Assembly (NCBI GenBank): GCA_023150835.1
Contig: JAKLKB010000010.1
Location: forward strand, 17,036 to 81,035
Direction of reading: 5' to 3'
DNA: 64,000 bases
Source of the DNA: Myxococcota bacterium
GTDB lineage: Bacteria; Myxococcota_C; UBA6777
Shown: positions 1,413 through 19,492 of the stretch, piece by piece
Numbering within the stretch: the first letter of the stretch is position 1
Layout: each line of letters starts with the position of its first letter
The notes under the pieces: model-generated
Database searches by the model: none
Told to the model about the DNA's origin: nothing
The model's input: the letters and a program-made list of their open reading frames with translations, nothing else
Program-made: the position numbers and the translations under genes

Positions 1413-2540
1413 CTAACGTCGTTTTTTGCGGCGCGGTTTTTTCTTGGCTTCGAGTTCTTTAGCGAGTTCTTTTTCTTTGAGTTCGGTGAGGTTTCGGATC
1501 TTCATGCGGACGTCCATCTTCATGCCCTCGTCGCCGATCTTGCGTTGGATAAAGTCTTTGAAGGTGTCAAGGGCCTTTTCGCGTTTTTCGGCGGCGTCAC
1601 GTTCAAGAGAGGCTTTTTGGGCCTTGTCTTTTTCGGTGATGGCCTGAACGCGGCTTTTTTCATACCAAAGGTCGTAGGCGAGACCTTGGTGAAAGAGTGC
1701 GCCGGCATCGTTGGGTTTGTTGGCGAGGATCTTTTGGGTGGTGTTGACGGCTTGTTCGAACTGGTGCTGTTTGATGAAAAGAAGCGCGAGCAGGTTGTAA
1801 CTTTGTTCGTTGGCGGCTTGATTTTGGATGGCGGAGAGGAGGGCGGCTTCGGCCTTTGAGTAAAAGGGTTTGGCGGCTTCGGCGACGGGGACAAGGATGG
1901 TGCGAGGGGGTTCGGGTTCGCCTTTTTTCTTTTTCTTTTTTTTCTTTTTGTCGTCGTCCTCGGGGGGAGGGGTGGGATCGGGTGGAGGGGGTTCGTGTTC
2001 AGCGGCTTGATCGAGGTGGACGGAAGCGAGGCCGTTGTAGGCTTCGGTGTATTTGGGGTTGAGTTGAATGGCCTTTTGCATGGCTTCGGCGGCTTTGGGG
2101 AATTGGCGTGCGGATTGGTAGGTGAGGGCGAGTTCGTAGGCGTAGTTGGCGTCTTTTGGATTGAGTTCAAAGGCTTTTTCGTAGTGGGGGATGGCTTTTT
2201 GAAACTCTTTGTTTTTGACGTAGATCTTGGCGAGGTTGAGGTGAGCGCTTTTGTTGTTGGCTTCGAGGGAGATGCACTTGAGGTAGGATTGGATGGCTTC
2301 GGGCCACTCTTCGCTGGCTTGCTGTGCGCGCCCGAGCAGGTAGTGAGTGTGGGGATCGTAGGCGTAGAGTCGGACGGCTTGTTGGAGGAGGGTTTTGGCG
2401 TTGGTGTATTGCCCAGCGTTAATGCTTTCGACGGCTTCGTTGGCGATCCGTCGGGCGCGCCGTTGGTCCACTTTTTCGCAGCCGAGGCTGAGCCAAACGC
2501 TGCAAAGTAAGAGGAAAAGGGTGAGGCTTTTCGCGTACAT
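1413..2540 (-). CDS. TPR-repeat lipoprotein at the end of the gliding cluster (GltE-type family)
   Basis: This 375-residue protein begins MYAKSLTLFL and has a signal peptide ending in the lipobox LSLGC, so the mature N-terminus would be lipidated Cys21 and the protein anchored in the envelope. An upstream ATG in the same frame exists at 2570, but the one at 2540 sits 6-10 bases after GGAAAG and starts a proper signal peptide. Most of the mature chain is tetratricopeptide repeats (A..LL..A..L.P..A..HYLLG patterns), interrupted near residues 185-210 by a Pro/Asp segment and a run of lysines, and it ends in an Arg/Lys-rich tail. It is the last gene of the leftward gliding-type cluster. It resembles the TPR lipoprotein GltE, but a better GltE candidate lies at 7194-8549, so this one may be a paralogue or a second scaffold. 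Confidence 0.8.
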   Translation of the reverse strand: MYAKSLTLFLLLCSVWLSLGCEKVDQRRARRIANEAVESINAGQYTNAKTLLQQAVRLYAYDPHTHYLLGRAQQASEEWPEAIQSYLKCISLEANNKSAHLNLAKIYVKNKEFQKAIPHYEKAFELNPKDANYAYELALTYQSARQFPKAAEAMQKAIQLNPKYTEAYNGLASVHLDQAAEHEPPPPDPTPPPEDDDKKKKKKKKKGEPEPPRTILVPVAEAAKPFYSKAEAALLSAIQNQAANEQSYNLLALLFIKQHQFEQAVNTTQKILANKPNDAGALFHQGLAYDLWYEKSRVQAITEKDKAQKASLERDAAEKREKALDTFKDFIQRKIGDEGMKMDVRMKIRNLTELKEKELAKELEAKKKPRRKKRR

Positions 2541-2625
2541 GGTATCTTTCCTTTGGAATGGATAAAACAAGGACGCGGAGATATCCGCGAGATATCGGGT
2601 TATCGGTGTGGTTGATGGGGTGGAA

Positions 2626-3240
2626 TCAGAAGTTGTAGGTTAGTGTGGGCATGAGGCCGATCCCAAGGCTAAGAACGCTGTCCGTGCCGGAGCTTTGGCC
2701 GAAGGTGATGGGGCGTAAGAGGCCGATGGCTTCGATGCCGACGGAGAGATGGCGTGCGCGAGTGTAGTAGCGCAAGCCAAGGCCGAGGTGAACGATCAAG
2801 CCGAGGTTGTTTTTGGTGTCGGGGAGGGAGAGGGAGACGCCTGCGCCGAGTTTGGCGTAGATGTAAAGTTGATCGAGGCGAACGAAGTGGATGGTTGCGC
2901 CGAGTTGAAAGAGAGAATCGCCGTTACCACCGCCTGCTTGGGGCTCTCCCGAGACGGCGGGTGCAAGGAAAGAGAGTTGGAGAGAAAAGATATCAGCGAT
3001 ATCGAATCCGATCTCGATACCACCGAGGGTTCCGACGAGGTTGGCTTGGGCTCCATTTTCGCGAGCGAGAGCAGAGGGTCGGAGAGCGAAGATATAAAGG
3101 CCGTAAGAGGCCGACATGAAGAAACCTTTTCGGACGTATGATTTGGGATCTTCTTCGAGGAATTGCGCGTTGGCGCGAGGGGTGAAGAGAGCGAAAAAGA
3201 CGGAAAAGGCAAAGAGACCGAAGAGTATGCGCCGCAACAT
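2626..3240 (-). CDS. Small outer-membrane beta-barrel protein (gliding-cluster OMP)
   Basis: The chosen start gives a 204-residue protein with a signal peptide (MLRRILFGLFAFSVFFALF, cleavage near RANAQ) followed by alternating amphipathic strands and an aromatic C-terminus ending TYNF, as expected for an outer-membrane beta-barrel. An earlier in-frame ATG at 3273 would spoil the signal peptide; the start at 3240 follows GGAG. There is no recognisable catalytic motif. It sits between GltG and the TPR lipoprotein, in the same direction. In Myxococcus several small barrels (GltA, GltB, GltH, CglE) form the outer-membrane part of the gliding machine, and this protein is a good candidate for one of them, although which one cannot be decided from the sequence alone. 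Confidence 0.72.
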   Translation of the reverse strand: MLRRILFGLFAFSVFFALFTPRANAQFLEEDPKSYVRKGFFMSASYGLYIFALRPSALARENGAQANLVGTLGGIEIGFDIADIFSLQLSFLAPAVSGEPQAGGGNGDSLFQLGATIHFVRLDQLYIYAKLGAGVSLSLPDTKNNLGLIVHLGLGLRYYTRARHLSVGIEAIGLLRPITFGQSSGTDSVLSLGIGLMPTLTYNF

Positions 3241-3392
3241 GATCTGTTCAGCTCCACGGATGTTCGGGGTCATCACAAAAGGCTGGTAGAAGCTAACACG
3301 AATCCTTGGTGTGTGCAATCTTCTTTTGCAGGTCGATGGGTCAGAGAGGAGAAAAGGTGAAGGCAAGAAAGAGGGCGCAAGATCGGGGGGGA

Positions 3393-5972
3393 TTAGGAGG
3401 GTTTAAAGAAGAAGGGATAGTTGACTTGGACGATACCGCCACCTTTGGGGGCAGGGAAGCGCATATTTTTGACGCGCTGTGCGAGACATTCTTCGACGCG
3501 TTCGTTGTTCATGGTGGTTTCCTTGACGCTGGAGGTGGAGACCATCCCGTTGCCTTCGATTTGGAAGAAGACTTTGATCTTGCCTTGGAGTTTGGGGTAT
3601 TTGTTGAGTTCTTTTTCGTAGCAGTATTTGATACGGCTGCGGTTGTTGTTGATTACGCGACGGATGATCTCTTTGTCGAGCGAACCGAAGATAAGGGGCG
3701 GACCCGTCGAGACATCGACGCTTTGTTTACGCTTGCCTTTGAGGCGGCCTTGGCCCCAACCGCGTCCACCTTTACCGCCGCCACGTCCGTAGGTTCCGAG
3801 GTTTCCGACGCCTACGCCCAGTCCGCTTAAACCGCCACCGCCCATGCCACCGCCGCTTCGGACGCCGAGGCCGCCGTCACCCGAGGCATTACCGACTTTT
3901 CCACCGAGGAAGTTTCCGATCGCATCGGCATCATCGCCCCCAAAGCCTTTTGCGGAGAGGATCGCTCCATAAGAACTTTGGCCGCCGCCAAGAAGCCCGA
4001 GCATACCTTTTTGGCCGACTTTGTCGAGCAATTCTTTTTCGACTTGTTGCATATTGATCGGAGCTGTACCATCGGGGTTTTTCTCGATCTGGCCGGCTTT
4101 CTTTTGGATATTTTTGGGGATCTCGGTGGTTTTTTTGCCCATTTTGCCTTCGGTGTCTTTGGCACGGGCGCCACCGCTTTCTTGTTTCTTTTTCTTTTCT
4201 TCTTCTTCTGGGGGTCGCACGATCAATTGGGCGAAGCGGTTGGGTTGTTTGAAGAAGCTGTCATCGAGGCCACGAGGAGCTTCGTCGGAAAGCAACATAA
4301 AGAGGACGGCAAGGCCGTGGAGCAAGAAGGATGCGCCCATCGCGCGGGCAAGAGCGAGATCGAGTTGGCTAAAGAGGCCGGGGACGATGCGTTTGGGGGC
4401 GGGAACAAAGCTGATCACGAAGTCAAGCTGCCCGAGGGTGAGGTTGACTTGGGATTGAGCAGGCAGGGCAAACTGGTGGCCGAAGTCGGTACGTTCGACT
4501 TTCGAGCTTTGTTTGATCTGCTCAAGCGTGAAGAGTTGATCCTTGATTTGGACCGTGCCTTCCATTTGGGGGGTAAAGTTGACCATCAAGCGGTCACCTT
4601 TGGCCTCGATCAAGGTGAACGAGGTCATCTCGGCAGGAAGGGCGTCTGTGCTGAGCGAGAAGGTATTTTTGCGAGATTCGCCGATGGTGATCTTTTTGGG
4701 GCTGTAGAAGTGAGCATGATCAAGGATGCGATCACCCCACATCACGCGAACTTCGAGGGCTTCTTGGGTATCGGCGTATTGGGCGTCCATGACGACGGGT
4801 TGTTGGGGGGCAGGGGCCGCGATGGAGGGTTGTGCAGCGATCGGAGCAAAGCCGCCCGTCGATTGGGGAGGATAGGGCGATTGTTGTGGAAAACCGCTCA
4901 TGGGTTGGGCTTGTTGTGCATAGCCGCCGTAGGCTTGTGCGTTGGGGTCGTAGCCTTGGGGAGCGCCGTAGCCTTGGGGAGCGCCGTAGCCTTGGGGAGC
5001 GCCGTAGCCTTGGGGAGCGCCGTAGCCTTGGGGGGCTGAAAAGGCCTGTGCGTTGGGGTCGTAGCCTTGGGGAGCCGCGACTTGTGGGATTTGGCCATAG
5101 CTGGGTTGTTGTGAGGCGTAGGCTTGTGCGTTGGGATCGTAGCCTTGAGGAGCGCCGTAGCCTTGGGGAGCGCCGTAGCCTTGAGGTTCTTGGGTGTAGG
5201 CGACTTGGGGCTGTGCAGGTTCTTGGTACTGCATCGGGGCAGGGGCTTGGTAAGCGTGCGCTTGTTGTTCGGAAACTGCGGGAGATTGGGCCGTTGCTTC
5301 TTGGTATGCAGCTTCGCGCACCGCATAAGCAGCCGCAGCGTTGTGTTGGGATGTATCGGGTTCAGCGGTCTCTTGGGAGAGATCGGCCTCAAGGAGGGGA
5401 TTGCGTGTGACGGAAGTGGACTCGAAGTTGGGTTCACCGCCAAGTCCAGCGAGAGGATTGTGGTGGTGTCCGAAATCGATGCCAGATGCCCCGACGTCTA
5501 CACCAACGCTGCCGGTCATACCTGATGCGTCAGGTGTAAAGCCAACGTCTGCACCGAGGCTTGCGGGAGAGAACGCGGCTTCTGCGATAGGAGCGGGGGC
5601 TTCTGCTGCGGGGGCCGCACCTTTGACGTTGTAATTGCCGAGACGTGCTTGGCCGACGGCTTCTTCGCCGATGAAGATCTTGATGTTGGTATCGCCAAGG
5701 ATCATCTCGTCGCCCGAGACGACTTTGGTTTTGTGGATGCGCTTGCCATTGACGCGGGTTCCTTTGGACGAACCCATGTCGATGACTTGGGCTTCGTCGT
5801 TGTCGAGGATCTCGATCACGGCGTGGATACGGTTGATGTGGGGGTCATCAAGGCGGAGGTTGACAGAGGCCAGCTTGCCGATCTTCACGATGCTTTCGTT
5901 GAATTCCTCGGTTCGCGGAGCTTGTCCTTCGCGTTCGATCAGGAGGAAAATTGGGGTTATGGGCTTTGCCAT
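3393..5972 (-). CDS. gltG: GltG-like FHA / AgmX-PglI C-terminal domain inner-membrane protein
   Basis: This 859-residue protein has the GltG (PglI) layout. An FHA phosphothreonine-binding domain covers residues 1-105 (GSSKGTRVNGKRI at 67-79). A Pro/Gln/Tyr-rich linker at about 250-390 holds repeats of GYGAPQ and GYDPNAQA. A further beta-rich cytoplasmic region spans about 400-525, and one membrane helix lies at about 545-562. The periplasmic part is charged, then Gly-rich (690-740), and ends in the AgmX/PglI TonB-like domain at 765-859, with Cys784 and Cys829 placed like the Cys pair of that family. The start follows AAGGGAGATCC. GltG-type proteins link the cytoplasmic control layer to the periplasm in the Agl-Glt gliding motor. 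The low-complexity linker is encoded by near-identical 18-bp units at about 4955-5200, so its length may vary between strains. Function is inferred from architecture and neighbours. Confidence 0.85.
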   Translation of the reverse strand: MAKPITPIFLLIEREGQAPRTEEFNESIVKIGKLASVNLRLDDPHINRIHAVIEILDNDEAQVIDMGSSKGTRVNGKRIHKTKVVSGDEMILGDTNIKIFIGEEAVGQARLGNYNVKGAAPAAEAPAPIAEAAFSPASLGADVGFTPDASGMTGSVGVDVGASGIDFGHHHNPLAGLGGEPNFESTSVTRNPLLEADLSQETAEPDTSQHNAAAAYAVREAAYQEATAQSPAVSEQQAHAYQAPAPMQYQEPAQPQVAYTQEPQGYGAPQGYGAPQGYDPNAQAYASQQPSYGQIPQVAAPQGYDPNAQAFSAPQGYGAPQGYGAPQGYGAPQGYGAPQGYDPNAQAYGGYAQQAQPMSGFPQQSPYPPQSTGGFAPIAAQPSIAAPAPQQPVVMDAQYADTQEALEVRVMWGDRILDHAHFYSPKKITIGESRKNTFSLSTDALPAEMTSFTLIEAKGDRLMVNFTPQMEGTVQIKDQLFTLEQIKQSSKVERTDFGHQFALPAQSQVNLTLGQLDFVISFVPAPKRIVPGLFSQLDLALARAMGASFLLHGLAVLFMLLSDEAPRGLDDSFFKQPNRFAQLIVRPPEEEEKKKKQESGGARAKDTEGKMGKKTTEIPKNIQKKAGQIEKNPDGTAPINMQQVEKELLDKVGQKGMLGLLGGGQSSYGAILSAKGFGGDDADAIGNFLGGKVGNASGDGGLGVRSGGGMGGGGLSGLGVGVGNLGTYGRGGGKGGRGWGQGRLKGKRKQSVDVSTGPPLIFGSLDKEIIRRVINNNRSRIKYCYEKELNKYPKLQGKIKVFFQIEGNGMVSTSSVKETTMNNERVEECLAQRVKNMRFPAPKGGGIVQVNYPFFFKPS

Positions 5973-6029
5973 CTGGGATCTCCCTTGGCTGTGTAGGAGA
6001 GGAGCGGAGGCGCTCGCAAGTGCGTTTGT

Positions 6030-6090
6030 GTTGTATTGCGTTTGTGTCGCGTTGTATCGCGTTGTATCGCGTTGTATCGCGTTGTATCGG
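6030..6090. repeat. 10-bp tandem repeat in the gltG/cglF spacer
   Basis: Four adjacent copies of GTTGTATCG(C/G) fill 6051-6090, preceded by two degenerate copies. The tract lies in the 120-bp spacer between the CglF-like gene (stop at 6093) and the start of gltG, upstream of the gltG ribosome-binding site. Two copies of a similar unit occur at about 45600 inside a coding region. It could be a variable tract that alters translation or mRNA structure, but nothing in the sequence proves a function. Confidence 0.8.
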
Positions 6091-6092
6091 GG

Positions 6093-6368
6093 TTATAGGT
6101 CGTTCACGGATTGGATGATCCGTTCACGAAAGTTTTGTCGGAGTTGGATCAAACGTTGAAACTTCACGTTTTTTCGGGCTTCGATGTATTCGCCGTCAGG
6201 TTTGGTCAAGTCGCCCGAGATGGTGTCGCTGCTGAAGTCGTACACGGTCTTCTTTTGGTAGAAGCGACCGCCGACTTTGACAGAACTGTCTTGGGCTTGT
6301 GGAGAGGTGGGGAGCGTCAAAGTGCTGAGTGCTGCGCAGGAAAGCCCAATCAAAAGCCAACGTTTCAT
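6093..6368 (-). CDS. Small exported protein, CglF-like
   Basis: This 91-residue protein starts MKRWLLIGLSCAALSTLTL and has a signal peptide with cleavage near SPQAQ, leaving a mature periplasmic or surface protein of about 65 residues. The mature part carries a KKTVYDF segment, then DLTKPDGEY and an RKNVKFQRLIQLR stretch. No catalytic site is visible. From memory of the family, the small Myxococcus motility protein CglF has a similar short KK.T.IDF...GELTKP.GSY pattern, and the position inside a Glt-type cluster fits, but this cannot be checked here. It follows the frameshifted gene by 9 bp and precedes gltG, so all three are probably co-transcribed. Confidence 0.6.
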   Translation of the reverse strand: MKRWLLIGLSCAALSTLTLPTSPQAQDSSVKVGGRFYQKKTVYDFSSDTISGDLTKPDGEYIEARKNVKFQRLIQLRQNFRERIIQSVNDL

Positions 6369-6377
6369 CGAAAACTC

Positions 6378-6844
6378 CTACTCCATCGGATGCCTCGAAG
6401 GAGGCCCTGTTGTCTGCATCTTCAAACTATCGTTGAGGATGGTTTGTGTGCGCGGGCTGGCGAAAAGATCCAAGGCGGTGCGCGGGGTGCGCGAGTAGAG
6501 AGAAGAGATTCGCACGGTCGCTGTTGGATCAAAGAATCCCTGACGCCAGCAAGGCGTACCTGCGCGATAGTAAACGATCTGATCGTCGATGTGGAGACTT
6601 TTTTTGTGGGGAAGCAGGGAAGTGGTTGAGAAGATCGCTCGATCTCCTCGATACAAGGGGCGATCGCGGTGGTTTGTTCGTCTGTGTTTGAGTCGGTCGT
6701 GGGGGTTGTCCACCAAGGCAAGGCACGAAAAACAAAGGCACGGGCAGTTTGGAGCTTTGAATGAACAAAAGCACGCCATTGCACGCCGTCGAGCGAAAAG
6801 CTCCAAAGCCACCAAAGGGGCGAGATGTGCAAGGTGGTGTTCAT
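6378..6844 (-). CDS. Hypothetical operon gene split by a -1 frameshift at an A7 run
   Basis: No single frame covers this stretch, but two frames join well. From ATG at 6844 (after AGGA, 9 bases away) the first frame codes about 82 residues beginning MNTTLHISPLWWLW, with genome-like codon use up to ...CFPTKK. From there the -1 frame continues SLHIDDQIVYYRAGTPCW and ends at 6378 with typical codons, only 9 bp before the CglF-like gene. The junction lies on seven A residues (minus strand, at 6599-6605), which read A AAA AAA in the first frame and form a classic slippery heptamer. The joined product would be about 155 residues, Trp-rich, without a signal peptide or known domain. Read-through by -1 slippage, a real disabling mutation and a sequencing error are all possible. 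I recognise no family; its place suggests a gliding-cluster role. Confidence 0.5.
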
Positions 6845-7012
6845 GTTGCGCGTTCCTGTGCGTTTGAAGATGGCCTGTGTGTCTAAGGTATTGAGATGGA
6901 GAAGCCCGCCGCGAAGCGTGCCAAATCGTTGAACTGGTGGGCTTAGACAAAGGGGGATCAGGGAAGTTCCCAAGCAAATCGTTTTTTGTTCGGCGAGGGC
7001 AAATGCAAGAGG

Positions 7013-7138
7013 TTCGGTTGGATGGATGGGAGATTCAGCTCGGTAGACAGGATGTTGGTTTGGATGGACAGGAGATCCGAGCGAATTGACGCGAGGTTCA
7101 GTCGGATAGACAGAGGATTCGGTCGAATGGATGGGCAG
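7013..7138. repeat. Six degenerate 21-bp units in the spacer after gltE
   Basis: Six consecutive 21-bp units (7013, 7034, 7055, 7076, 7097, 7118) share a TTCGGT(C/T)GGATGGACAGG-type pattern. On the plus strand they would translate to heptads such as FSRIDRG and SERIDAR, but there is no start codon or ribosome-binding site in front and a stop follows directly. On the minus strand they translate to SPIHPTE-type heptads. The whole 349-bp gap 6845-7193 lies between the GltE-like stop and the frameshifted gene, and I see no convincing gene in it. It may be the remnant of a heptad-repeat coding region. Confidence 0.6.
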
Positions 7139-7193
7139 ATCTGAGGGGATATCGGGGCGAGAATCGTGTGGCGGGATCGGGAGTGGGTGGGGG

Positions 7194-8549
7194 TTAGCTT
7201 CTTGGGGCAGGCTTTGCGCCTTCGGGGTTTTTATCTTCGGGCTTGTCGTCTGATTTTTTATCGTCGGGCTTATCGGGATCGCCTTTGTCAGGTTCCAGCT
7301 TGTCGGTCGAAAGATCTTTGGGAACGTTTTTGTCGATGTTGTCTTTTGCGTCGGTTTTTCGTGGCGCTGGTTTTTGTTGTTTGGCGAGTTTTTCTTTTTC
7401 TTCGGCTTCTTGCATTTTGAGGCGATCTTGCGACTCTTTGAGGAGTTGATACGCAGCGTGTTTCTCGCCGATACGCGAGCCTTGTTCGCCGATGTAGCGT
7501 CGAAGGCTGGTCTCTGCAAGCTTTGGTTTGTTCATGAAGCGGAGGTGAAGAACGGCGAGGTTGAAAACGCTGGAGGCATGGCCGGGATAGTATTTGAGCA
7601 GTTGTTCTTGGTAGACTTTTTCGGCTTCTTCAAACTTGCGATTGGCGCGTAGCGCGAGGGCATAGCCAAGGAGTGCTTCTTGGCTTCTTGGGCGGAGTTT
7701 CACGGCTTGTTGGAGGGTTGTGAGGGCGCGGGAGTAGTCGTGATAACGCAGCGCGAGCAAGCCGAGGTTCATTTGTGCGGAAAACAGGTTGGGATCTTCT
7801 TTGGCGGCTTCTCCAAAGAAGTACATTGCTTCGGGCATTTTTTGCTCGTTCATAAACGCGAGCCCTCGGATATTAAAGAGGCGCGCATCTTTTTTCTTGG
7901 TTTTCTCGGCCAGTTGGTACACCAAATGAACGATCTTGTACTTCTTTTGCTTGAGGTAGACGCCAGCGATTACGCGGTAGGCTTCGACGTTTTCGGGGTC
8001 AAGAGCAAGAATGCCTTGCGCCGTTTTGAGGGCATCTTCGTATTGGTTGTTGGCGACTTGCAGCGAAGCGAGGTTGATCTGCATCTCTGCTTTTTTGGCG
8101 TTTTGTGGATCGAGCCGAAGGTAGCGGTAATAGGTGCGCAGGGCGTTGTCGTGTTGCTTTTGTCGGACATAGAGTTGGACAAGCCGATAGGTTGCTTCGG
8201 GGTTTTTCTCGTCATTTTGTAAGGCTTGGCCAAGTTGACGTGTGGCGCGGTTATATTGTCCTGTCTCTTCGTAGAGAGCGGCCAGATTGAAGTGCGCCGC
8301 AGCGAGAGAAGGTTTTTTCTCGATGGCTTGGCGGTAGAGTTTTTCGACTTGTGCGTGGTCAATACTTCCTGAGCGTTTGCCTTCTTTGTGGATACCGACA
8401 GCTTCTTGGTAGATCTCTTCTGCTGTCTTTTCGACCACGACATCACGTTGAGGAGGCGGGTCATTTTTGACGACTTTGGTGGTGCAGCCGATCGATAGAA
8501 GCCATGCACAACCCAAGGGAAGCAAGAGGTGCTTTCGCATCGCGTTCAC
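7194..8549 (-). CDS. gltE: GltE-like TPR lipoprotein
   Basis: This 451-residue protein has a signal peptide (MRKHLLLPLGCAWLLSIGC) with lipobox LSIGC, so it should be a lipidated envelope protein. The mature chain is a ladder of tetratricopeptide repeats (AAHFNLAALYEETGQYNRA and later copies) over about residues 45-390, ending in a disordered Asp/Lys/Pro tail. The start is GTG at 8549, six bases after GGAAGG and overlapping the upstream stop (GTGA), which points to translational coupling with the large TPR gene; an ATG at 8540 is less well placed. Known GltE (AglT) is a TPR lipoprotein of the Agl-Glt complex. The family match rests on architecture and gene order. Confidence 0.75.
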   Translation of the reverse strand: MNAMRKHLLLPLGCAWLLSIGCTTKVVKNDPPPQRDVVVEKTAEEIYQEAVGIHKEGKRSGSIDHAQVEKLYRQAIEKKPSLAAAHFNLAALYEETGQYNRATRQLGQALQNDEKNPEATYRLVQLYVRQKQHDNALRTYYRYLRLDPQNAKKAEMQINLASLQVANNQYEDALKTAQGILALDPENVEAYRVIAGVYLKQKKYKIVHLVYQLAEKTKKKDARLFNIRGLAFMNEQKMPEAMYFFGEAAKEDPNLFSAQMNLGLLALRYHDYSRALTTLQQAVKLRPRSQEALLGYALALRANRKFEEAEKVYQEQLLKYYPGHASSVFNLAVLHLRFMNKPKLAETSLRRYIGEQGSRIGEKHAAYQLLKESQDRLKMQEAEEKEKLAKQQKPAPRKTDAKDNIDKNVPKDLSTDKLEPDKGDPDKPDDKKSDDKPEDKNPEGAKPAPRS

Positions 8550-11500
8550 GGTCCACCTTCCTTCGTGCGCAAAGCAGCGTCATCCGCGACTTTTTTTCCT
8601 TTGGAGGGGGGCTCGCTCGGCGTTGGCGCTTGTTCCATCAGGGTGGAACTATAACGGAAGCCGCTGTCGGCCACCCCCGCAGAGGGGCGCTCTTCGATAA
8701 ACTTGTGGTAGTCTTTGGGGCGGAGTTCTTGGAGGCGTCCGAGGGACTTAAAGGTCCATTCGTTGTAGACACTGGCATTGTGGGAGACCCGCAAGCTGCG
8801 CTGGTAGAATGTGACGGCTTGGGCTTCGTAAGGCGCGGATTGTTTGAGAAGTCCTTCTTCGTACTGCATCTTCAGTTTTTCAAGAAGGTTGGACATCAAC
8901 TGTTTGCCTTGTGGGCCCCGAAGGAATCGTTTGGCAAGGGGGCGTCGGAACTTCCACGGAACTCCCCGAGATTTAAGGACTTCGATCAGTTTTTCCATGA
9001 CGTTCTTTTCGGCTTCTTTGCGAAAATCGGGCGCGGCAGCACTGCCGATGAAGCGAGAATAGTCAAGGAAAAGCTCGCCGACCCGAAAGTAAGAGGCGAT
9101 CCGCCAAGCGGGGTGCTTGTATTTTGCGACGACCTCGAACTTTTTGCTGGTTTTTTCCAAGGCTTTGAGTTTTTGTTGGAGAGTTTTCTTCATGGCATCT
9201 TGCGAGATGCCCGCTTTGAGTTGGATCTTGCGGTACTCAGCGAAGTCTTTTTCGGCATCCATAAAGCGGACATTGGCGGCAGCATCGATGGCATCGATGT
9301 TTTCTTTGTCTTTGTCAGGCAGGTTGTTGAAACGTCGAGGGATCAGCTCAAACTCTTTTTTGGCTTTGCTGACCAAGCGCTGGCGGTCATACACACGAGC
9401 GACTTCCATTTTGGCGTGAAGTCGTTGCCCAGCAGAGCCGTAGCCTTGTTTGGCGAATTCTTCCATCATGTTGCGATAGCGGGAAAACTCGCCGTTGTCT
9501 TTGTGGTGTTGTGCGATCTTGAGGTAGATGGCGACAAAGGTCTTATCGTCTTTGCTTTTTTTGCGCTTTTTGATCAAAGTGATGCCAGTACGCATCAAGC
9601 GTGTGTAATGTGCCATCGCAGCGGCGTTATCACCCATGGCCTCGCGAAAGATTGCGGCTTGGATGATGATGTCGTCGATCTTGGGATCTTTGGAATATTT
9701 GTTGGCGTATCGTTCGTAAAATGCGGCTGCACGGCTAAAATCTGCGCGACTCGCGTAGAGATCCGCAAGGCCAAGTACGGTATCTTTTTCAAATCGAGAA
9801 CCCGGATATTTCTCCAACATCTCAAGGCGAAGGTTCAGCGCTCTTTCGGGTTCTTTGGCGTTGCCGTAGTGGATCGATGCGTTGAAGAGAGCCGTGGGAC
9901 CGAGATTTTTGTTGTCAGGAAATTCACGAGCGATCTTCAAGAAACATTCTGCTGCGGGTGTGTACTGTTTTTGCCGCACGATACTTTCGCAGATCTTCAT
10001 CCCCGATCCGATGATCAAGTTACGCATCTCACCTTTGAATTTCCGATCGCCAAGATCGGGGACTTTGTAGAACTTCCATGCGGACTTGTTCAGTTTGTCC
10101 CATTCTTGTTGAAGCTGGTAGGTGTCGAGGATGAAGTGCGCGGAGAAGATCGCGTACTCGTGTTTGGGGTGTTTTTCGACAAGGAAGTAGAATTGGGGGA
10201 GGGCTTTGTCGAAGTGGTTGAAGTAGTAGTAAAGCAGCGCAGCTTTGTAGGAAACTTCGAGCGCACGGTCGCCTTTGGCGTAGTATTTGATGTGATCTTC
10301 ACAAGCATCAAGGAAGCTTTTGGCGATATCGGGCAGAGGTTTTTTCTCTTGAGCGCCTTTTTTCTCGGTGAGGTTTTCAGGATTGATCCGCTCTCGTTTC
10401 ATCAATAAGTCGTACGCAAGGATGGTGTTGTATGAAGCATCAAAAGAGTATTTACCTTTTGGATTGCTTCGGTATACGAGGATGTAATTGTCTGCGGCTT
10501 CTTTGAATTGACGGGATTTGTACTGGATCTCGGCCAACCAAAAGCGCATCTCGTAGGCGTTGTCGTCTGTTGGGAAGACATCGAGGTAGATCTTGTAAAA
10601 CTCACGGGCTTCGTCGAAAAAGTCCTGACGAAGGGTCTTTTGGGCTTCGTAGTGGCGATAACGAGCGTATTCGTTGAGTTGGGTTTTGACTTCGGAAACC
10701 GCTTCTTTGTATTGCTCGTCGTTGGCTTTGGTTTGGCTGAAAGACTTGACAAGACCGCCGAGTTTGGTGGCTTCGCGGATCGTGTCTGTTTTGGAGCGAT
10801 CGGCGTCGACGGCGCGTGTGATGTAGAGCTGGTATTTGACGGTGATTGGATCGTCAGGTTGAAGGCGCATGAGTGTGTTGTAGATCGTGAGGATGGCGGC
10901 TGTTTTTCCTTGCGATCGATAGATACCACCAAGGTTTTGAAGCATACGAAGATAACTATCTTCGCCGCCGATCTCGCGGAATCGGCGCTCGGCGTCGGCA
11001 GCTTCGCCGACTTGGCTGTAGGCCAGTACCATGTCGCGGAGGGCTTCTTTGAGCAGGGCGAGGCGGCGACTGTTGCTACCTTTAAAGTTCTCGGCATCAC
11101 GGGCATAGTTGATGACGGCGACGAACTTGTTGAGGGCGTCTTGGTAGCGGATCATGTTGTAATCGCACCACGCCACTTTATAGAGCGCAAAGCCGTAAAT
11201 GCTGGTGTCGCGGAAGCGCAAGACCATCTCGTACTGTTGTTTGGCGTTTTTCACCTGCCCTTTTTCAAAGTAGTACTCTGCAAACGCGAGGTAGGCATTT
11301 GGAATAAAGGGACATTTGGGATAAGTTCGCGCAAATTTTTGGAGGAAGGGGCGGTAGACTCCCAAACCTTTTTGGGTTTCGTTCATCTCGATCAGGTTTT
11401 TACCGAGGAAGAAGTAGGCCTCGCAAAGGCGTGGATAATCGGGATAATTGTTGATAATCTTGAAGTATTCGGTGGCGGCTTTTTTACGCGCCTCGTTGGC

Positions 11501-11977: not shown

Positions 11978-13675
11978 TTAGCGGTGACACTCACCTTTGA
12001 TGCGATAACGGTAATAGCCGAGTTCATCGATCCAATATTCGTTTTGGAAAGGCCAGAAGGTGTAATCGTCAGCGACAGAGACGGAGATCAGCTTGCGGTC
12101 TTCGTTTTTTTTGCCTTTGACGCGCATGGTGAAGCCGCCCGATTCGTTGGCGGCTTTGTTGATACGTTCTTTTTGGGCGCTGAGGGTTTCGTATTGGATC
12201 TTGAGGGCCTGTCCGATGAGTCCTTGGAGTTCGGTTTGGGCTTTGAGGATGCGTTCGCGAGCGCGAGCGCCGGCTTCTTTGATCTTCTTTATACGTTCTT
12301 CACGGAGGCGTTTTGCCATCTCAAGGCCGATGGCGGATTGTTGCCATGCTTGGCTGCTTTGTTGGATGATGGCGAGTTCGCTTTCAAGTTCTTTGATATA
12401 AGAGAACAAGACTTGTAGCGGTTTGTCTTGGAAGGTGAGGTTGAGGATGCGCTGGAACATCTGCTCGCTTGGATCGTCCTCGAGTCCTGCGACTTTGGTC
12501 TTTTCTTCTTGTTGATTGCGCAGTTCACTGAGGGCCTTGTACATCGCTTCGTCGTTGGGGTTGCGTTGAAGGAAGCTGTTGAGCGAAGCAACCAGCGGGC
12601 GGTACTGGGAAAGATAATCTTGAACGATCTTTTTGACTTCTGTATAGCGGCAACGCTCGAAAAAGCTGACGGCTTGGAGGATGCCGACTTCGGGGTAGTA
12701 TTCGTTTTTGAAGTAGGGGGAACGAAGAGTATGGATGATCCCAAGGGTTTCTTCGTACTTGCCGCGTCGCAAAAAGGCCCAAGACATCTCAAAGAGTGCA
12801 TCCAGCCAACGGGGGCTATTGCGGGGGATGGCTTGGTACCAGTAGGTGGCCCCGCCGAAGTGTTTTGCGCTGTAGTGGATGCGTGCGATGCCCATGATCC
12901 CGAGTTCAAAGACGCGTTGGCGCATCTCTTTGTCTTGGATGCGCATGGCGGCGCGTGCAGCGCGTTTGAAGGCTTGAGCCGATTTTCCCGCGAGTTCTTT
13001 TCGGTCGGAGGTGTCATAGATCGCGCCGAGGATGTATTGTGCGCGGGCGTAGAATTCGGGTTTTTGAGAACGAACGCGATTTAGCAAGCGTTGCGCGAGG
13101 GGGAGGCGTTTTTCGAGCGAGAGGTCTTCGCGCAAGTAGTAGTATTTACCGAGAAGATAAAGCAATTCGTCGCGGTATTGATTGGGGAAGTCACTTACGT
13201 TAAAGCTGCGCAGTTTTCCGAGGAACATCGACTCGTTTTGAAGTTTTCGACTGACCGTGATGGAGTAGGTGAGGGCGCGTTTGAAGTAGCGGTGGCTGGC
13301 CCCTGCGCGGATGATATCGGTGAAGTAGTCGAGTGCGGCGTGAAACAAGCCCATCCGATAGAGAGAGAGGGCCAGTTGGAACTGTGCGGCTTGGAAATAA
13401 CGGGAACCAGCGGCGTCTTTAACGACACGGTAAAACATGAGGCTTGCTGCGGCGTAGTTTTTGTCTGCGTAGAAGGTGTTTCCACGTGCCATCTCGCGGC
13501 TACCGGCTTGTTTGTTGAGTTTGATCGGGCCGAACGTGAATCCCCTCCGCCCGGGGGGTTCTTGGTTGTTGTTTTCAAAGATATCAAGTTGGGCTTGGGC
13601 AGGGAAAGTGAAGCCCAAGCCCATGAGCGCGCCACAAAACAGCGCCAATCGTTTCCAAAGCGGACGTGCCATCAT
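11978..13675 (-). CDS. gltC: GltC-like periplasmic TPR protein
   Basis: Starting at ATG 13675, seven bases after AAGGA, this is a 565-residue protein with a signal peptide (MMARPLWKRLALFCGALMG, cleavage near FPAQAQ). Tetratricopeptide-like helices fill about residues 55-400 (YFQAAQFQLALSLYRMGLF and others), followed by a long charged helix around 440-490 and a short C-terminal domain rich in aromatics (DDYTFWPFQNEYWIDELGYY). It lies between the beta-barrel gene and the large TPR gene, with short spacers on both sides. In Myxococcus, GltC is a periplasmic TPR protein encoded directly after the barrels GltA and GltB; the same barrel-TPR order is found here, which is the main support for the name. 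Confidence 0.72.
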   Translation of the reverse strand: MMARPLWKRLALFCGALMGLGFTFPAQAQLDIFENNNQEPPGRRGFTFGPIKLNKQAGSREMARGNTFYADKNYAAASLMFYRVVKDAAGSRYFQAAQFQLALSLYRMGLFHAALDYFTDIIRAGASHRYFKRALTYSITVSRKLQNESMFLGKLRSFNVSDFPNQYRDELLYLLGKYYYLREDLSLEKRLPLAQRLLNRVRSQKPEFYARAQYILGAIYDTSDRKELAGKSAQAFKRAARAAMRIQDKEMRQRVFELGIMGIARIHYSAKHFGGATYWYQAIPRNSPRWLDALFEMSWAFLRRGKYEETLGIIHTLRSPYFKNEYYPEVGILQAVSFFERCRYTEVKKIVQDYLSQYRPLVASLNSFLQRNPNDEAMYKALSELRNQQEEKTKVAGLEDDPSEQMFQRILNLTFQDKPLQVLFSYIKELESELAIIQQSSQAWQQSAIGLEMAKRLREERIKKIKEAGARARERILKAQTELQGLIGQALKIQYETLSAQKERINKAANESGGFTMRVKGKKNEDRKLISVSVADDYTFWPFQNEYWIDELGYYRYRIKGECHR

Positions 13676-13779: not shown

Positions 13780-14475
13780 TTAGCTGGTATAGAGCGACGT
13801 GACGGGAAGCACAAAGCCAACACCAAAGGTTGCGACGAGGTTGTGGTTGAGCACACTCACGCTGCCGCCAAGTAGGTTCTGACTAAAGATGTAGTCACGG
13901 ATGTCCATGCGCACAAAAAACCAGCTTGCGAGCATCCATCGCATACCGAGGCCAAAACTTACACCAAAGAGATCACTTCGGTTGGTGCGGATATACCCAG
14001 CACCCGCCGTAATGTAGGCGTCGATATCAACGATGGCGTTGCCGGCCTGAAACTTTCCGGGAAAAGGCGTCCAAACAAAGCTGCCAAATGCCATGATCTG
14101 AGGCCGCGCAAAGTCAGGGTTGATCTTGAGTGTCGTTCCATCGGGAGCAGGGGTGGTTCCTTCGCCTGCGCGCAAGCGATCAACGATGGTGGTATTGAAG
14201 CCTGTGCCAAACAGGCCCATCAGTTCGAATCCAAAGGATTCGGTTGCGTGGAAGGTGTAGCTTCCGCCGCCCATGATCACCTGCATAAAGCCGTCGTTGA
14301 TGGAACCTGCGAAGATCCCACTGATCTCGTGGCGTCGCTTCTTTGTGATGGACTTGAGTTGAAAGACGTCCACGCGATCTTCGGTGAGTGGGGCTGCGAC
14401 GGCAGATGTCGGCAGTCCGAACCACAACAGGCATAGCGAGAGGAGTACGGAAGAGATCAAGCGTTCTGTGCGCAA
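13780..14475 (-). CDS. Outer-membrane beta-barrel protein (OMP_myx_plus type; GltB/CglE-like)
   Basis: This 231-residue protein has a signal peptide (LISSVLLSLCLLWFGLP, cleavage near AVAAP) and a mature part made of about eight amphipathic strands. The pattern ITKKRRHEISGIFAGSINDGF, a DRLR segment, then PQIMAFGSFVWTPFPGKF and IDAYITAGAGYIRT is typical of the small myxobacterial outer-membrane barrel family. The start is TTG at 14475, seven bases after GAGG; no ATG fits. It follows the CglB-like gene and precedes the GltC-like gene, the place a GltA, GltB or CglE homologue would have. Which of these it is cannot be settled by eye. Confidence 0.75.
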   Translation of the reverse strand: MRTERLISSVLLSLCLLWFGLPTSAVAAPLTEDRVDVFQLKSITKKRRHEISGIFAGSINDGFMQVIMGGGSYTFHATESFGFELMGLFGTGFNTTIVDRLRAGEGTTPAPDGTTLKINPDFARPQIMAFGSFVWTPFPGKFQAGNAIVDIDAYITAGAGYIRTNRSDLFGVSFGLGMRWMLASWFFVRMDIRDYIFSQNLLGGSVSVLNHNLVATFGVGFVLPVTSLYTS

Positions 14476-14604
14476 TGCAATACCTCACTCGAACAAGATT
14501 CGGAGGAGCCAACCAGCGCGATCGGGGGTTTGTTGCTCTCTCGGGGTCTATGACAACGTATCATGGCGAACGATCGGGTTTATTCGTAGAAGATCCAATG
14601 TGTT

Positions 14605-16029
14605 TCAATTGCCGGGTTTTGCGAGGTATACGACTTTGATCTTGGCCCCGGGCTGGGGTTGTTGTTTGGCGGCACCGCTGAGTTTGATGATGTGTTGGTT
14701 GCTGCCCGCTGCGGGGGGGATGTACAACCAACCATCTCCATAACATTTGTTGGCGGGTCCGCATTCTTGGGAACCGACGCAAGCTCCGTTGGCATTGCAA
14801 TCGCCGACAATTGGGGCTTTTGCGATCTCTTCGACGCTACCGTTGGGTTGTGTCACGCGAACGATCAACCCGTTCGGATTTTCTGGTTTTTTCGAGAGTA
14901 CGATGTTTTTGAGGCGATCAATGATGGCTCCTGCGAAACGCAAAAGAGCTTCACGGAATCCGTTGTCATCCCCGCAGATCGGGAACCAGCGTTCGTTGGG
15001 ATCGCCTGTACTTGTCTGCGATATGAAGTCAAACAGACGGAAACCTCCTGCAGCATCGGCATCTGGGGATTTACAGCCGCCGCATTTTCTTGACACAGGA
15101 ACAGGAGTTAAATATTCGCATTTTCCGCCACCTGTGCCACATTCGCTATTTTGTGTGCAACCACCTTGCGGATCGATCGGGGTTTGTGTTCCGGGCTTGT
15201 TGACAAAGGGATTGCCAATCAAGCCAGACACGATCACTTCGCGTTTGAGGCTTTTGATGAAGTCGATGTATTTGCTCACGCTGACGAGCTTGTCCATCTG
15301 CCCTTTTTCGGGTTGGCCGTCAGGGCCGATCAAAGGGTTGCCTTTGTCGTCCGTCAACGTCACGCTTGGGGGGATAAAGCAGGTGTCAGGTGTGCGCTTT
15401 TCGTCGAGCTTGCCTTCGTGCGAGCAATCGTCTTCGTCGGAGATGATAATGATGGCAAGCAAGGAACCTTCGCGTAAAAAGCCCTTGTTGTCGATATCCG
15501 CGAAACCTCCGTTGGCGCTGTTGCTGAGCGCGGCTTTGATGGCTTCAAGGTGGCGTTCAAAGTTGGAGCCTTTGGTGCCGACGGCTGCGTTTTTGGTGAA
15601 GGCTTCGACGATTTGTTTGGTGGTAAAGCTGGAGGTGATGATCTTGGGGGTGCCGGGATCGGCTTGAACGAGACGTCCCCAGCCCTTGGGGTTAAAGACT
15701 GTGTCCATGTCTGTGGTCAAGATGCCGATTTGGAAGTCTTTGACATCTTTGTTGAGCAATTCTTGGATGAAGCGCTCGAAGTTGTTGCGAAGTTTGGTTT
15801 GTTCTTCGGCCATCGATCCCGAACTATCGATAAGAAAGAGGATGTCAACGCCTTTGTCGGCACCTTGGCTGCCGACGTCTTCGGGGACGATGTAAGTGTT
15901 GTTGGGGAGAGATTGTAGCGGATAAGAGTTGCAGCCCACCACAACAGGAGCGAAAAGCAGGCCAATCAGCCCGACAATCCGAAAGAACGAGGGCCATTTT
16001 TGAGAGCGACGAGCGGCTTGGAGTCTCAT
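14605..16029 (-). CDS. cglB: VWA-domain lipoprotein, CglB-like surface adhesin
   Basis: The start at 16029 gives a 474-residue lipoprotein with lipobox VVVGC (Cys33). A von Willebrand A domain follows at about 60-260 and its MIDAS metal site is intact: DSSGS with Asp68, Ser70 and Ser72. A long Cys-rich part follows (CGTGGGKCEYLTP, CGGCKSPDAD, CNANGACVGSQEC), then a short beta-rich end. Myxococcus CglB is a VWA lipoprotein adhesin exposed by the gliding machine at focal adhesions, and size, lipobox, MIDAS and cysteine content all agree. It heads the leftward cluster and diverges from the CglC-like and GltJ genes. An upstream in-frame ATG at 16083 would add 18 residues without a better signal peptide. 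VWA lipoproteins occur outside motility too, so the name depends on the neighbourhood. Confidence 0.72.
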   Translation of the reverse strand: MRLQAARRSQKWPSFFRIVGLIGLLFAPVVVGCNSYPLQSLPNNTYIVPEDVGSQGADKGVDILFLIDSSGSMAEEQTKLRNNFERFIQELLNKDVKDFQIGILTTDMDTVFNPKGWGRLVQADPGTPKIITSSFTTKQIVEAFTKNAAVGTKGSNFERHLEAIKAALSNSANGGFADIDNKGFLREGSLLAIIIISDEDDCSHEGKLDEKRTPDTCFIPPSVTLTDDKGNPLIGPDGQPEKGQMDKLVSVSKYIDFIKSLKREVIVSGLIGNPFVNKPGTQTPIDPQGGCTQNSECGTGGGKCEYLTPVPVSRKCGGCKSPDADAAGGFRLFDFISQTSTGDPNERWFPICGDDNGFREALLRFAGAIIDRLKNIVLSKKPENPNGLIVRVTQPNGSVEEIAKAPIVGDCNANGACVGSQECGPANKCYGDGWLYIPPAAGSNQHIIKLSGAAKQQPQPGAKIKVVYLAKPGN

Positions 16030-16518: not shown

Positions 16519-16923
16519 ATGCAGGGCTTTCGGTGGTTTCTTCTGGTGATGCTGATGGGCGTTGGTGTGTATGGAGCGGGTTGTGGTGGTTCAGAAGTCG
16601 GAAAGCGTTGTAGTCTCAACGAAGAAAACATCAAAGAGCTTCAGAGATTAAGTGCTTCGCCGAACAACGCTGCGGTGTTGTTGGAACCGTCTTTTGAGTG
16701 TGAGACCGGACTTAATTTTTGCATTGGTTCTGGTTACGACGAACAAAAGAAAGCCAACCTCGGCTATTGTTCCAAAGTGTGCGCAGTGACAGAGGACTGT
16801 CCAAAAGACTTTTCGTGCTCAGACTTTTTCCCCGTTCCTTCGCAAAGTTTGCCTGCATCCGTTCCGCAATCGATCAAGGATCTTTCAGGAAAAAAGCTCT
16901 GTGTGCGCAATAGCATTCCGTAA
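16519..16923 (+). CDS. cglC: Small Cys-rich lipoprotein, CglC-like
   Basis: The 134-residue product starts MQGFRWFLLVMLMGVGVYGAG. Lipobox GAGC gives a lipidated N-terminal Cys, followed by an EVGKRCSL segment and a compact domain with paired cysteines (FECETGLNFC, GYCSKVCAVTEDCPKDFSC). The ATG at 16519 sits just after GGAGAAGAAAAAAGG. From memory of the family, Myxococcus CglC also opens with a .LGKPC.L segment and carries a GYCS.AC motif. The gene faces away from the CglB-like gene and is followed by gltJ, which supports a motility role. Being so short, it could also be a general surface lipoprotein. Confidence 0.6.
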   Translation: MQGFRWFLLVMLMGVGVYGAGCGGSEVGKRCSLNEENIKELQRLSASPNNAAVLLEPSFECETGLNFCIGSGYDEQKKANLGYCSKVCAVTEDCPKDFSCSDFFPVPSQSLPASVPQSIKDLSGKKLCVRNSIP

Positions 16924-16925
16924 AC

Positions 16926-17002
16926 TCAACCCCAAAGCCATCAATGGGGTTTGAGACTTGTGTGGCTCGATCTTTGTGGAATGCTGGCCTTTTTGAAGGC
17001 CA
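16926..17002 (+). promoter_or_regulatory. Two hairpins between cglC-like and gltJ
   Basis: TCAACCCCA and TGGGGTTTGA (16926-16954) pair with one bulge, and TGGCCTT pairs with AAGGCCA (16985-17002). No T-run follows the first one directly, so neither is a textbook intrinsic terminator. They may set mRNA stability or partial termination before gltJ. Confidence 0.5.
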
Positions 17003-17056
17003 CACCGATCCAAGGCAGGACGATCACAGAGACTCGAACGAAGGAGAGGCGCGAGA

Positions 17057-19492
17057 ATGAAGATTCGCTGTGAAAGTTGTGGGGCGAAGTATTCCATCGC
17101 TGACAACTTGCTCAAAAAAACGGTCACCAAATTTCGCTGTAAAAAGTGTGGCCATGTGATGTCTGTGCAGACTCCCGATGGGGAGGGTGGAGATCACGAT
17201 GACCTCGCAAACCTTCCCGATGCTCCGAGTTCGGCGATTGACTTTCCTGAGGAAAGCACACAAATCGGCCAAGTGTCGTCGCAGGGTTGGGCTCCCGCAG
17301 GCGCGCATGATCATGCGCACGCTTATCACGGCGGTTATGATGAAAATATGACCGCCGCGCAAGCCTACGAAGAGGCCGCAGATGCGGCGTATGGCGATCC
17401 TGCTGCGCAAGACTACTACGCACAGCAAGCCAACCAAGCGGCTGGCTACCAAGACTACGAAAGCGCGGCAGGGGCGTATCCTCAAGACGATATGTACGGT
17501 GCCACCGGTCTTTTCTCTGCGGACAATGCCGACTGGCAAAATGTGATCAACGAAGCACAAGCCGCACAAGAAGAGGATATCTACGCAGGCATGGACACCA
17601 ACGTGTCGCGGGCTGCTCACGAAGAAAGTTACAGCGAAAGCGACGAAGCGGTCGATGATGAGTTTGATCGCGCCTTGCAAGAGCGCGAAGAAGAGTTGAT
17701 GCCACGTAAGCCGATCCGTCAGGATTATAGCGACATCGCTCCAAACCATCAGGAACAAGGTATCGTGCCGCTGAGCATGGCACGCCAAGAAGTCCAAGAA
17801 GCCGGCAAAGAAGAAGTCAGCACCAAGGTCTTCAACATCAACGCCCTTGAAACCTTGCGATCGGAACGCGAAGCTGCACGCAAAGAACGCGAACAGCGCA
17901 CCAAAGGCAAACAACCTGATCGCAAAAAAGCTCCTGCTCCCGCTTCTGTCGGGATCGCCGAAACCAAAGAACCCCCCGAATGGTATGTGATCGAAAATGA
18001 AGAACAGGTGGGGCCTTTGAGCAAAGCCGAGATCCGTGATCGCCTCAAACGCGGTGCTCTTGACGCCGAACATTACATCTGGAAAGAGGGCCTCCCCGAG
18101 TGGAAGCCCATCCAAGAAGTCGCTGCCCTTGCTGAAGTTCTCAAACAAGTCGAAGACGAAAAAGTCGGCAAGCCCAACGGTTTGTCTGTTGCTTCAAGCA
18201 TCCCTGCCCCGTCCAGCGGTAATCTTGGGGCCATCTCTTTTGCTCCACCCGGAGCCAAGCCTGCTGCCTCGATCGCGGAACCACCCAAAAACAACGATCT
18301 TCGGGCATTGGCCGGTGGAATCGCCGAAAACAAGCCTTCTACGCCCAAGCGTCCGACCTCGATGGCGGCTGCTTTGCTGCAAGAAGAGCCTCCTCCTCCG
18401 CTTGCTCCCTCGGGTGGGTTTGGCGTTCTTGGTCCTGCTGTTCCTGATATCGCTGCCCCTGCTGGAACGATGACAGGCGGATTTCAAGGCTTCGGATCTC
18501 CCCAACCTACGGGGGCTTTTGCTTCTTCTCCTGTTGGATTTGCTAGTCCTGCTCCTGCGCCTTTTACAGGTTCGCCATTCGACAAAGAAAAAAAGAGCAA
18601 TCTTGGTCTGATTGTTGGTTTGTCGATCGGTGGAACTTTGCTGCTTGGTGTGGCGATCTTTCTCGGGATCTATTTTGTGATGAGCGGACCCAAAAATGAT
18701 CCCACCGTCGCCCAGCTACAGCCCGGCATGAACCAAAATATCCCATCCCAACAAGTTCCCTCGCTTCCTGTTCAACAGCCGCCTCCTCCCCCTGTTCCCG
18801 GACCTTCCGCCCCTCTTGCACAAAATACTCCCGCACCTTCCGCGACTCGCACCCAACCCGAAAAGCGCAGCGAGCCCGAAGAACGCAGCGAGCCCGAAGA
18901 ACGCAGCGAACCGACCGCTCGCCGCAAAACCCGTCGTGCTGTTCGGCGTAGAACCCGCGCTCCACGACGACGCACAGCCTCCGAACCCCGCGAACGCGAA
19001 GCGACCGAACCTCGTGAAGAACCCGCAGCACGGCGTCCCAGCGGCGATGATCCACCCCCTCCACCCCCCCCGCCCTCGGGGGATGATCCACCCCCCCCTC
19101 CACCCCCCGCTGCGACGGGGAATAGCAAAACAGGACTCGATAGCGGTCTTGGAAACTTGCTTGGTGGCGGAGGAACTGATCCCGCACCTCGTCGTGCAGA
19201 GCCGCCTCCCCGTCGTGCGAGCGTCCCCGAACAACTCACGAAGTCTCAAGTTGCCCGTGTAATTCAAAACAACGCAGAGCAGATCAGCGGTTGCCAAGAT
19301 CGCTACGGAAAAAGTGTTCGCAGTATCCGCGTAAGCTGGACCATTAAACCCAGCGGTATGCCCACAGGGATCTCGGTCGACGGAGCCTCTGGATCGTTTG
19401 AGAACTGCGTCAAAGGCAAGATCCGAAACTGGCGTTTCCCCCGCTTCTCTGGATCTCCGATGGAGATCGGTGGCGTCCCCTTCCAATTCTAA
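17057..19492 (+). CDS. gltJ: GltJ (AgmX)-like zinc-ribbon/GYF/TonB-type inner-membrane protein
   Basis: This 811-residue protein has the full GltJ order. An MJ0042-type zinc ribbon covers residues 1-36 (Cys5, Cys8, Cys28, Cys31). A long acidic, Ala/Tyr-rich linker follows. A GYF_2 domain spans about 307-370 (EWYVIENEEQVGPLSKAEI). A single membrane helix lies at about 517-540 (LIVGLSIGGTLLLGVAIFLG). A Pro/Arg-rich periplasmic arm runs from 560 to 720, and an AgmX TonB-like domain fills 727-811 with the paired Cys746 and Cys784. In Myxococcus, GltJ is the inner-membrane switch component, whose cytoplasmic zinc ribbon and GYF domain have been reported to contact MglA and MglB. The start is ATG 17057 after AGGAGAGGCGCGAGA. 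The next gene, ftsY, is convergent with a 48-bp gap. The architecture is so specific that I regard the identification as firm. Confidence 0.88.
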   Translation: MKIRCESCGAKYSIADNLLKKTVTKFRCKKCGHVMSVQTPDGEGGDHDDLANLPDAPSSAIDFPEESTQIGQVSSQGWAPAGAHDHAHAYHGGYDENMTAAQAYEEAADAAYGDPAAQDYYAQQANQAAGYQDYESAAGAYPQDDMYGATGLFSADNADWQNVINEAQAAQEEDIYAGMDTNVSRAAHEESYSESDEAVDDEFDRALQEREEELMPRKPIRQDYSDIAPNHQEQGIVPLSMARQEVQEAGKEEVSTKVFNINALETLRSEREAARKEREQRTKGKQPDRKKAPAPASVGIAETKEPPEWYVIENEEQVGPLSKAEIRDRLKRGALDAEHYIWKEGLPEWKPIQEVAALAEVLKQVEDEKVGKPNGLSVASSIPAPSSGNLGAISFAPPGAKPAASIAEPPKNNDLRALAGGIAENKPSTPKRPTSMAAALLQEEPPPPLAPSGGFGVLGPAVPDIAAPAGTMTGGFQGFGSPQPTGAFASSPVGFASPAPAPFTGSPFDKEKKSNLGLIVGLSIGGTLLLGVAIFLGIYFVMSGPKNDPTVAQLQPGMNQNIPSQQVPSLPVQQPPPPPVPGPSAPLAQNTPAPSATRTQPEKRSEPEERSEPEERSEPTARRKTRRAVRRRTRAPRRRTASEPREREATEPREEPAARRPSGDDPPPPPPPPSGDDPPPPPPPAATGNSKTGLDSGLGNLLGGGGTDPAPRRAEPPPRRASVPEQLTKSQVARVIQNNAEQISGCQDRYGKSVRSIRVSWTIKPSGMPTGISVDGASGSFENCVKGKIRNWRFPRFSGSPMEIGGVPFQF

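Follow-up and report, generated by a model that had tools for sequence, protein, structure and literature searches.

What machine would a bacterium outside the Myxococcota build from a compact set of Glt-type genes, and what would drive it? The question is raised by eleven genes at positions 1413-19492 of a 64,000-nucleotide stretch of DNA (the window; G000:C115:17036-81035), which comes from a 7.56-Mb draft genome (G000) that is 93% complete. Phylogenetically, the locus is an orthologue of the Glt genes of the Agl-Glt machinery of Myxococcus xanthus. We think it rather probable that its genes supply the half of an Agl-Glt-type machine that spans the envelope, that is, a Glt-type surface-transport or gliding complex, working with a motor of the type found in the core complex (AglRQS with GltC, GltD, GltE and GltG; PMC3169522). 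The first-pass annotation of this DNA had suspected another lineage, and the source genome indeed belongs to a small phylum that GTDB 232 separates from Myxococcota; we treat the two as distinct in that taxonomy because phylum-level searches give separate genome sets (5 versus 174). All five genomes of the small phylum, each at least 85% complete, have a GltC homologue, as do 166 of the 174 Myxococcota genomes (139 of the 174 above the equivalog cut-off, many at more than 1000 bits). The novelty lies in the lineage, in the lack of a motility-type motor and in a consistent core-type coupling motif, not in the compactness of the locus.

The set was identified with NCBIfam and Pfam profiles and by synteny. 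Nine genes are transcribed from the minus strand, in the order VWA lipoprotein, outer-membrane barrel, GltC, GltD, GltE, CglF, GltG, CglE and TPR lipoprotein; CglC and then GltJ are divergent, on the plus strand. By position the features are:

1413-2540, minus strand: TPR lipoprotein of 375 amino acids, in the place that GltI has in Myxococcota clusters but not GltI (TPR matches and a lipobox; kept in G001, G002 and G004)
2626-3273, minus strand: GltH/CglE-type outer-membrane beta-barrel (NF033755 CglE, 67.7 bits, cut-off 70; directly 3' of gltG, as in the Myxococcus-like G1 and nfs loci)
3393-5972, minus strand: GltG, with FHA domain, one membrane helix with SxxxH (SFLLH) and an AgmX/PglI (TonB-like) C-terminus (NF033760, 442 bits; myxo_SS_tail, 110 bits; Pfam FHA)
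6093-6368, minus strand: GltF/CglF small secreted protein (NF033764 CglF, 89.5 bits, cut-off 90; syntenic slot between gltE and gltG)
7194-8540, minus strand: GltE TPR lipoprotein (NF033758, 106 bits)
8546-11956, minus strand: GltD, large periplasmic TPR protein of 1136 amino acids (profile match to GltD of Myxococcota clusters)
11978-13675, minus strand: GltC (NF033756, 374 bits; alignment)
13780-14475, minus strand: single GltA/GltB-type outer-membrane beta-barrel (TIGR04565 OMP_myx_plus, 88.8 bits, cut-off 60)
14605-16029, minus strand: VWA surface lipoprotein with a metal-ion-dependent adhesion site (MIDAS), first gene of the operon and possibly a CglB-type adhesin (42 bits to the MIDAS family adhesin model, 27 bits to CglD)
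16519-16923, plus strand: GltK/CglC Cys-rich lipoprotein, divergent (NF033754 CglC, 23 bits; aligned Cys pattern; position)
17057-19492, plus strand: GltJ, with zinc ribbon, GYF domain, membrane helix and AgmX/TonB-like C-terminus (NF033761, 139 bits; PF13717, PF14237; PDB 7z3c, 7zok)

Every Glt/Cgl-type part that had been listed from architecture was found, by NCBIfam, Pfam and our own profiles or by PDB domain matches; profile comparison of each protein with the Glt/Cgl families supports the labels, and the gene order agrees gene by gene with that of Myxococcota Glt clusters. In NCBIfam the E-values are 1e-111 for GltC (cut-off 450 bits), 4e-132 for GltG (650 bits), 3e-40 for GltJ (450 bits) and 2e-30 for GltE (225 bits). 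CglF and CglE score marginally under their equivalog cut-offs, and the match of CglC is weak (23 bits, E-value 6e-5), its Cys pattern and divergent position being shared with Myxococcota clusters. Only OMP_myx_plus passes its cut-off; scores below the equivalog cut-offs for all the other Glt/Cgl matches are expected, because these are orthologues outside Myxococcaceae. The NCBIfam scan of the window proteins matched no GltD model, and the 1136-residue protein is assigned from the GltD of the cluster in G131, which scores 1251 bits against the window profile. We take G131 to be Myxococcus-like from its GltC score and from what we presume to be the M. xanthus gene-number order of its glt, nfs and agl loci. 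Pfam places FHA in GltG and a zinc ribbon and GYF_2 in GltJ, both of which match solved domains of M. xanthus AgmX/GltJ. MXAN_2538 is both gltK and cglC, and CglF is GltF (PMC4488436); CglE is taken as GltH from its slot directly behind gltG.

The genome contains two further clusters. One, on contig C176 (L025), has the order outer-membrane barrel-GltC-GltD-GltE-CglF-GltG, without a motor and with no GltJ nearby; the other, on contig C134 (L027), is a core complex, GltC-GltD-GltE-small-AglR-AglQ-AglS-GltG. Relatives in the phylum bear the window cluster together with both paralogous clusters. We built unrooted trees from concatenated GltC, GltD and GltG of 34 clusters, using FastTree and a mixture model. 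The window clusters are sister to all sampled Myxococcota Glt clusters (support 0.999 in FastTree; 99 by the Shimodaira-Hasegawa-like approximate likelihood ratio test in the mixture-model tree) and lie outside the core clade, inside which the C134-type clusters fall (1.0). The C176-type clusters join Nfs weakly in FastTree (0.70), and the mixture-model tree gives them no firm placement. By the approximately unbiased (AU) test, a grouping of the window clusters with Nfs is rejected (p-AU 8e-5), as is one with the C176-type (p-AU 0.004). The homology to Glt that had been proposed therefore holds in the stricter sense of orthology, and a Glt orthologue is now placed outside Myxococcota. With the core as outgroup, the tree implies a split among the Glt, Nfs and core paralogues that is older than the separation of the two phyla. 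A paralogue split of that age conflicts with the recent duplication stated in 2013 (PMC3858216); early transfer between the phyla may have taken place instead.

The tree also bears on whether the locus encodes an Nfs-like machine, a Glt paralogue that would move surface polysaccharide for coat or capsule assembly and not for locomotion. The Nfs sporulation machinery (nfsA-H) is likewise a one-locus A-H set (PMC3858216, PMC3169522) and has no GltI, which is missing from our locus too, and Glt and Nfs proteins have one common architecture. We consider this reading unlikely, given the rejected grouping with Nfs and the presence at the locus of GltJ and GltK/CglC, both of which Nfs lacks; the C176 cluster is the better Nfs-like candidate.

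If the locus is the Glt half of a machine, its motor would have to be sought elsewhere in the genome. G000 encodes 11 MotA/ExbB and 11 ExbD proteins, of which profiles mark as Agl-like only those on C134 (AglR, AglQ and AglS), C21 (AglR) and C137 (AglQ). Using the C21 AglR as query over 15 genomes, followed by a tree, we found no motility-type (M1) AglR in the five genomes of the phylum, which are incomplete drafts; their AglR-like proteins are all core-type or TolQ/ExbB-like. Each of the five has one core AglR, in a complete core operon, and one orphan AglR. The orphans form one clade, sister to the phylum's own core AglRs, and their grouping with motility-type AglRs is rejected (p-AU 0.0014). 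The motor that normally powers crawling thus seems to be missing from this lineage, whose Glt machine is probably driven by the older, core-type motor. The orphan of G000 lies on C21 (L029:2382-3116) and has counterparts in G001-G004; no AglQ or AglS adjoins an orphan AglR in the regions read.

A sequence pattern in GltG points the same way. SxxxH is a motif of the membrane helices of TonB and TolA. We found it in the GltG helix of all 4 window-type clusters, all 4 C176-type clusters and 7 of 8 core clusters; it is absent from the GltGs of Myxococcota Glt clusters (0/10) and Nfs clusters (0/3), and present in one Nfs-like cluster of G021. The pattern was noticed after the AglR tree and was not predicted beforehand, so we use it as supporting evidence and not as independent proof. 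In M. xanthus AglR binds GltG (PMC3169522), and the distribution of the motif fits a GltG helix that is matched to the motor clade. Because the window GltG keeps the SxxxH of core GltGs, a core-type motor is favoured: most likely either the C134 AglRQS or the C21 orphan AglR with core-type AglQ and AglS. It is conceivable, and we put it forward tentatively, that the motor was swapped: the motility-type AglRQS was either lost from the phylum's Glt machine or never part of it, and the machine relies instead on a core-type motor, with a lineage-specific orphan AglR duplicate and a GltG that retains the TonB-type SxxxH coupling helix. If that is true, Glt and its paralogues predate Myxococcota and the specificity of AglR-GltG pairing can be read from sequence. 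Comparing SxxxH with AglR clade gives a sequence-level handle on the matching of a Tol/Exb-type motor with the partner that transmits its force.

At the other end of the putative machine stands the VWA lipoprotein. Its lipobox is present, and the core of the MIDAS reported by the first-pass annotation is intact (DSSGS, for DxSxS). It heads the operon also in G001, G002, G004 and one Myxococcota genome, G021 (L113: VWA-outer-membrane barrel-GltC). The lipobox Cys is followed by C[QN]xYxF, with the MIDAS about 35 residues on. CglB of M. xanthus, itself a VWA lipoprotein with a MIDAS, is represented here by a candidate in G131 (L215:4838-6172), which we take to be CglB from its position and the MIDAS residue we would expect. 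This candidate shows the same arrangement, as do VWA lipoproteins from several Myxococcota genomes; it is missing from four other VWA lipoproteins compared, the comparison sequences having been picked partly by where their matches began. This G131 protein is far from the glt loci and its overall similarity to the window protein is weak: a profile built without CglB gives it a low 18.6 bits. VWA/integrin-like structure matches, obtained with a low-confidence AlphaFold model of the VWA protein built from 4 sequences (predicted local distance difference test score, 51), are supportive only. We regard orthology of the VWA protein to CglB as a lead, and the outer-membrane module may have included a VWA adhesin from an early stage. 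For control of the machine, MglB and MglA are encoded together on contig C42 of G000 (searched in this genome), scoring 190 and 359 bits, respectively, against the solved M. xanthus proteins. GltJ is reportedly an MglA-responsive switch.

From these parts we infer how the machine could work. An AglRQS-type motor whose genes lie outside the locus would sit in the inner membrane, run on protons and push GltG by way of the GltG membrane helix; both GltG and GltJ would cross the peptidoglycan by their TonB-like C-termini; and GltC, GltD and GltE would pass the force on through the periplasm to a platform in the outer membrane, made up of one GltA/B barrel, GltH, GltF and GltK. The platform would display the VWA/MIDAS lipoprotein, which would grip the substrate, and MglA-GTP, acting via the zinc ribbon and GYF domain of GltJ, would switch the assembly on and off, MglA and MglB being encoded on another contig. 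Such a machine could very probably link a Tol/Exb-type motor with an adhesin on the cell surface, and its output would most likely be gliding or surface transport.

Several points weigh against this reading. The first-pass annotation saw the envelope modules assembled in one cluster, which is right, and did not mention the motor. The machine is not complete in the locus: a profile search found no AglR, AglQ or AglS gene in the locus, and GltI is absent from the locus in both the window and G004, no genome-wide search for it having been made. GltI is essential for gliding in M. xanthus. The core-type motor raises a difficulty of its own. Motility-type AglQ and AglS both retain their membrane Asp, whereas in this phylum AglQ has Asn at the position of the proton-carrying Asp in all five core copies and in the C137 copy (in G000, C134 L027:8596-9123 and C137 L049:2559-3086; likewise in the relatives). 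AglS keeps its Asp, and the Asn in AglQ makes it hard to see how such a motor would conduct protons. Some Myxococcota core motors also have just one Asp-bearing subunit. In addition, the paralogous C176 and C134 clusters could compete for the same motors, the link to CglB is made through a short N-terminal motif, and all the genomes are draft assemblies of uncultured bacteria with no known motility phenotype.

The absence of motility-type AglR from the five genomes and of GltI from the locus, together with an adhesin at the operon head, might alternatively mark a Glt-derived machine for adhesion or surface contact (for example, attachment to prey or particles) that does not move because its dedicated motility motor is gone. 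This too we consider unlikely, since all five genomes retain two core-type AglRs, GltG retains a TonB-type motor-coupling motif, and GltJ and MglA/MglB are retained as well. That the locus is an unrelated Tol-Pal-like or general TonB-like transport system merely sharing domains with Glt is very improbable: TPR, FHA, TonB-like and VWA domains are common and G000 has many AgmX-tail proteins, but the full-length family matches (above all GltC and GltG), the conserved order of eleven genes and the gene-by-gene orthology within a clade with Glt reject it.

The Glt-type complex with a core-type motor, which we prefer, is not distinguished by its layout. We searched 10 Myxococcota genomes with profiles built from the window genes and located both gltC and gltG for nine of them. 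In seven of these, G035, G154, G037, G009, G170, G045 and G021 (L107-L113), the cluster occupies one locus, with the order outer-membrane barrel, (second barrel), GltC, GltD, GltE, CglF, GltG, then in the usual case CglE, often with a large GltI-like TPR protein and mostly with a divergent CglC. The glt genes of Myxococcus had been described as spread over separate loci, which agrees with the separate G2 (L104) and G1 (L105) loci of G131, beside its one-locus nfs (L106); G058 is also split, and G008, with GltC and GltG on different contigs, was counted in neither class. The one-locus layout is therefore the common Myxococcota state, with only the Myxococcus-like genomes checked being split, and the proposal of a specially compact version is rejected because most examined Myxococcota clusters are single-locus. 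One-locus organisation had already been noted in 2011 for Anaeromyxobacter, Nfs and non-delta core complexes (PMC3169522).

Compared with M. xanthus Agl-Glt (loci G1, G2 and M1; PMC3169522), the window has GltC, D, E, F, G, H, J, K and a GltA/B-type barrel in common, as well as the gene order within modules and MglA/MglB in the genome. It differs in being one locus with one GltA/B barrel instead of two, in having the VWA adhesin inside the operon and SxxxH in the GltG helix, in the divergent GltJ beside GltK and not after GltI, and in the GltI and motility-type AglR that were not found (in the locus and in the five genomes, respectively). With one-locus Myxococcota Glt clusters (Anaeromyxobacter-type L107 and L108-L113) it shares the block of divergent CglC-outer-membrane barrel-GltC-D-E-F-G-H; most of those have two barrels, several have the large GltI-like protein downstream, and most of their genomes carry motility-type aglRQS elsewhere. 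The core complex, including C134, has homologous GltC, D, E and G and the SxxxH motif, but comes with its own AglRQS, and its GltG is short and lacks the FHA part, whereas the window has the outer-membrane module and GltJ and no motor gene. Peculiar to the window's phylum are the one barrel (single at the operon head in G000, G002 and G004), the VWA lipoprotein at the operon head (apart from G021), the TPR lipoprotein in the GltI slot and GltJ beside CglC; the arrangement is the same in G004 (L119, L120).

Between gltE and cglF, about 825 bases (6369-7193) hold no convincing gene and are about 88% identical over most of their length in a genome of the same genus. In the Glt operon of G004 an additional short GltG with SxxxH separates gltE from cglF (L119:17447-18910); compared with it as a possible relic, the window gap shows no similarity. 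The cluster is flanked by Tex-like coding sequence (1-1233) and by FtsY and SMC genes (19541-24977), named from sequence. Further along the minus strand of the window are a Cys-rich lipoprotein (25543-27219) whose repeated modules are similar to the Cys pattern of CglC and which has no Pfam match, a tandem pair of sulfatase-family membrane proteins (41928-47425), and a lipoprotein-like protein (52756-54591) that combines Kazal, pacifastin and VWC modules, all of them families more familiar from animals.

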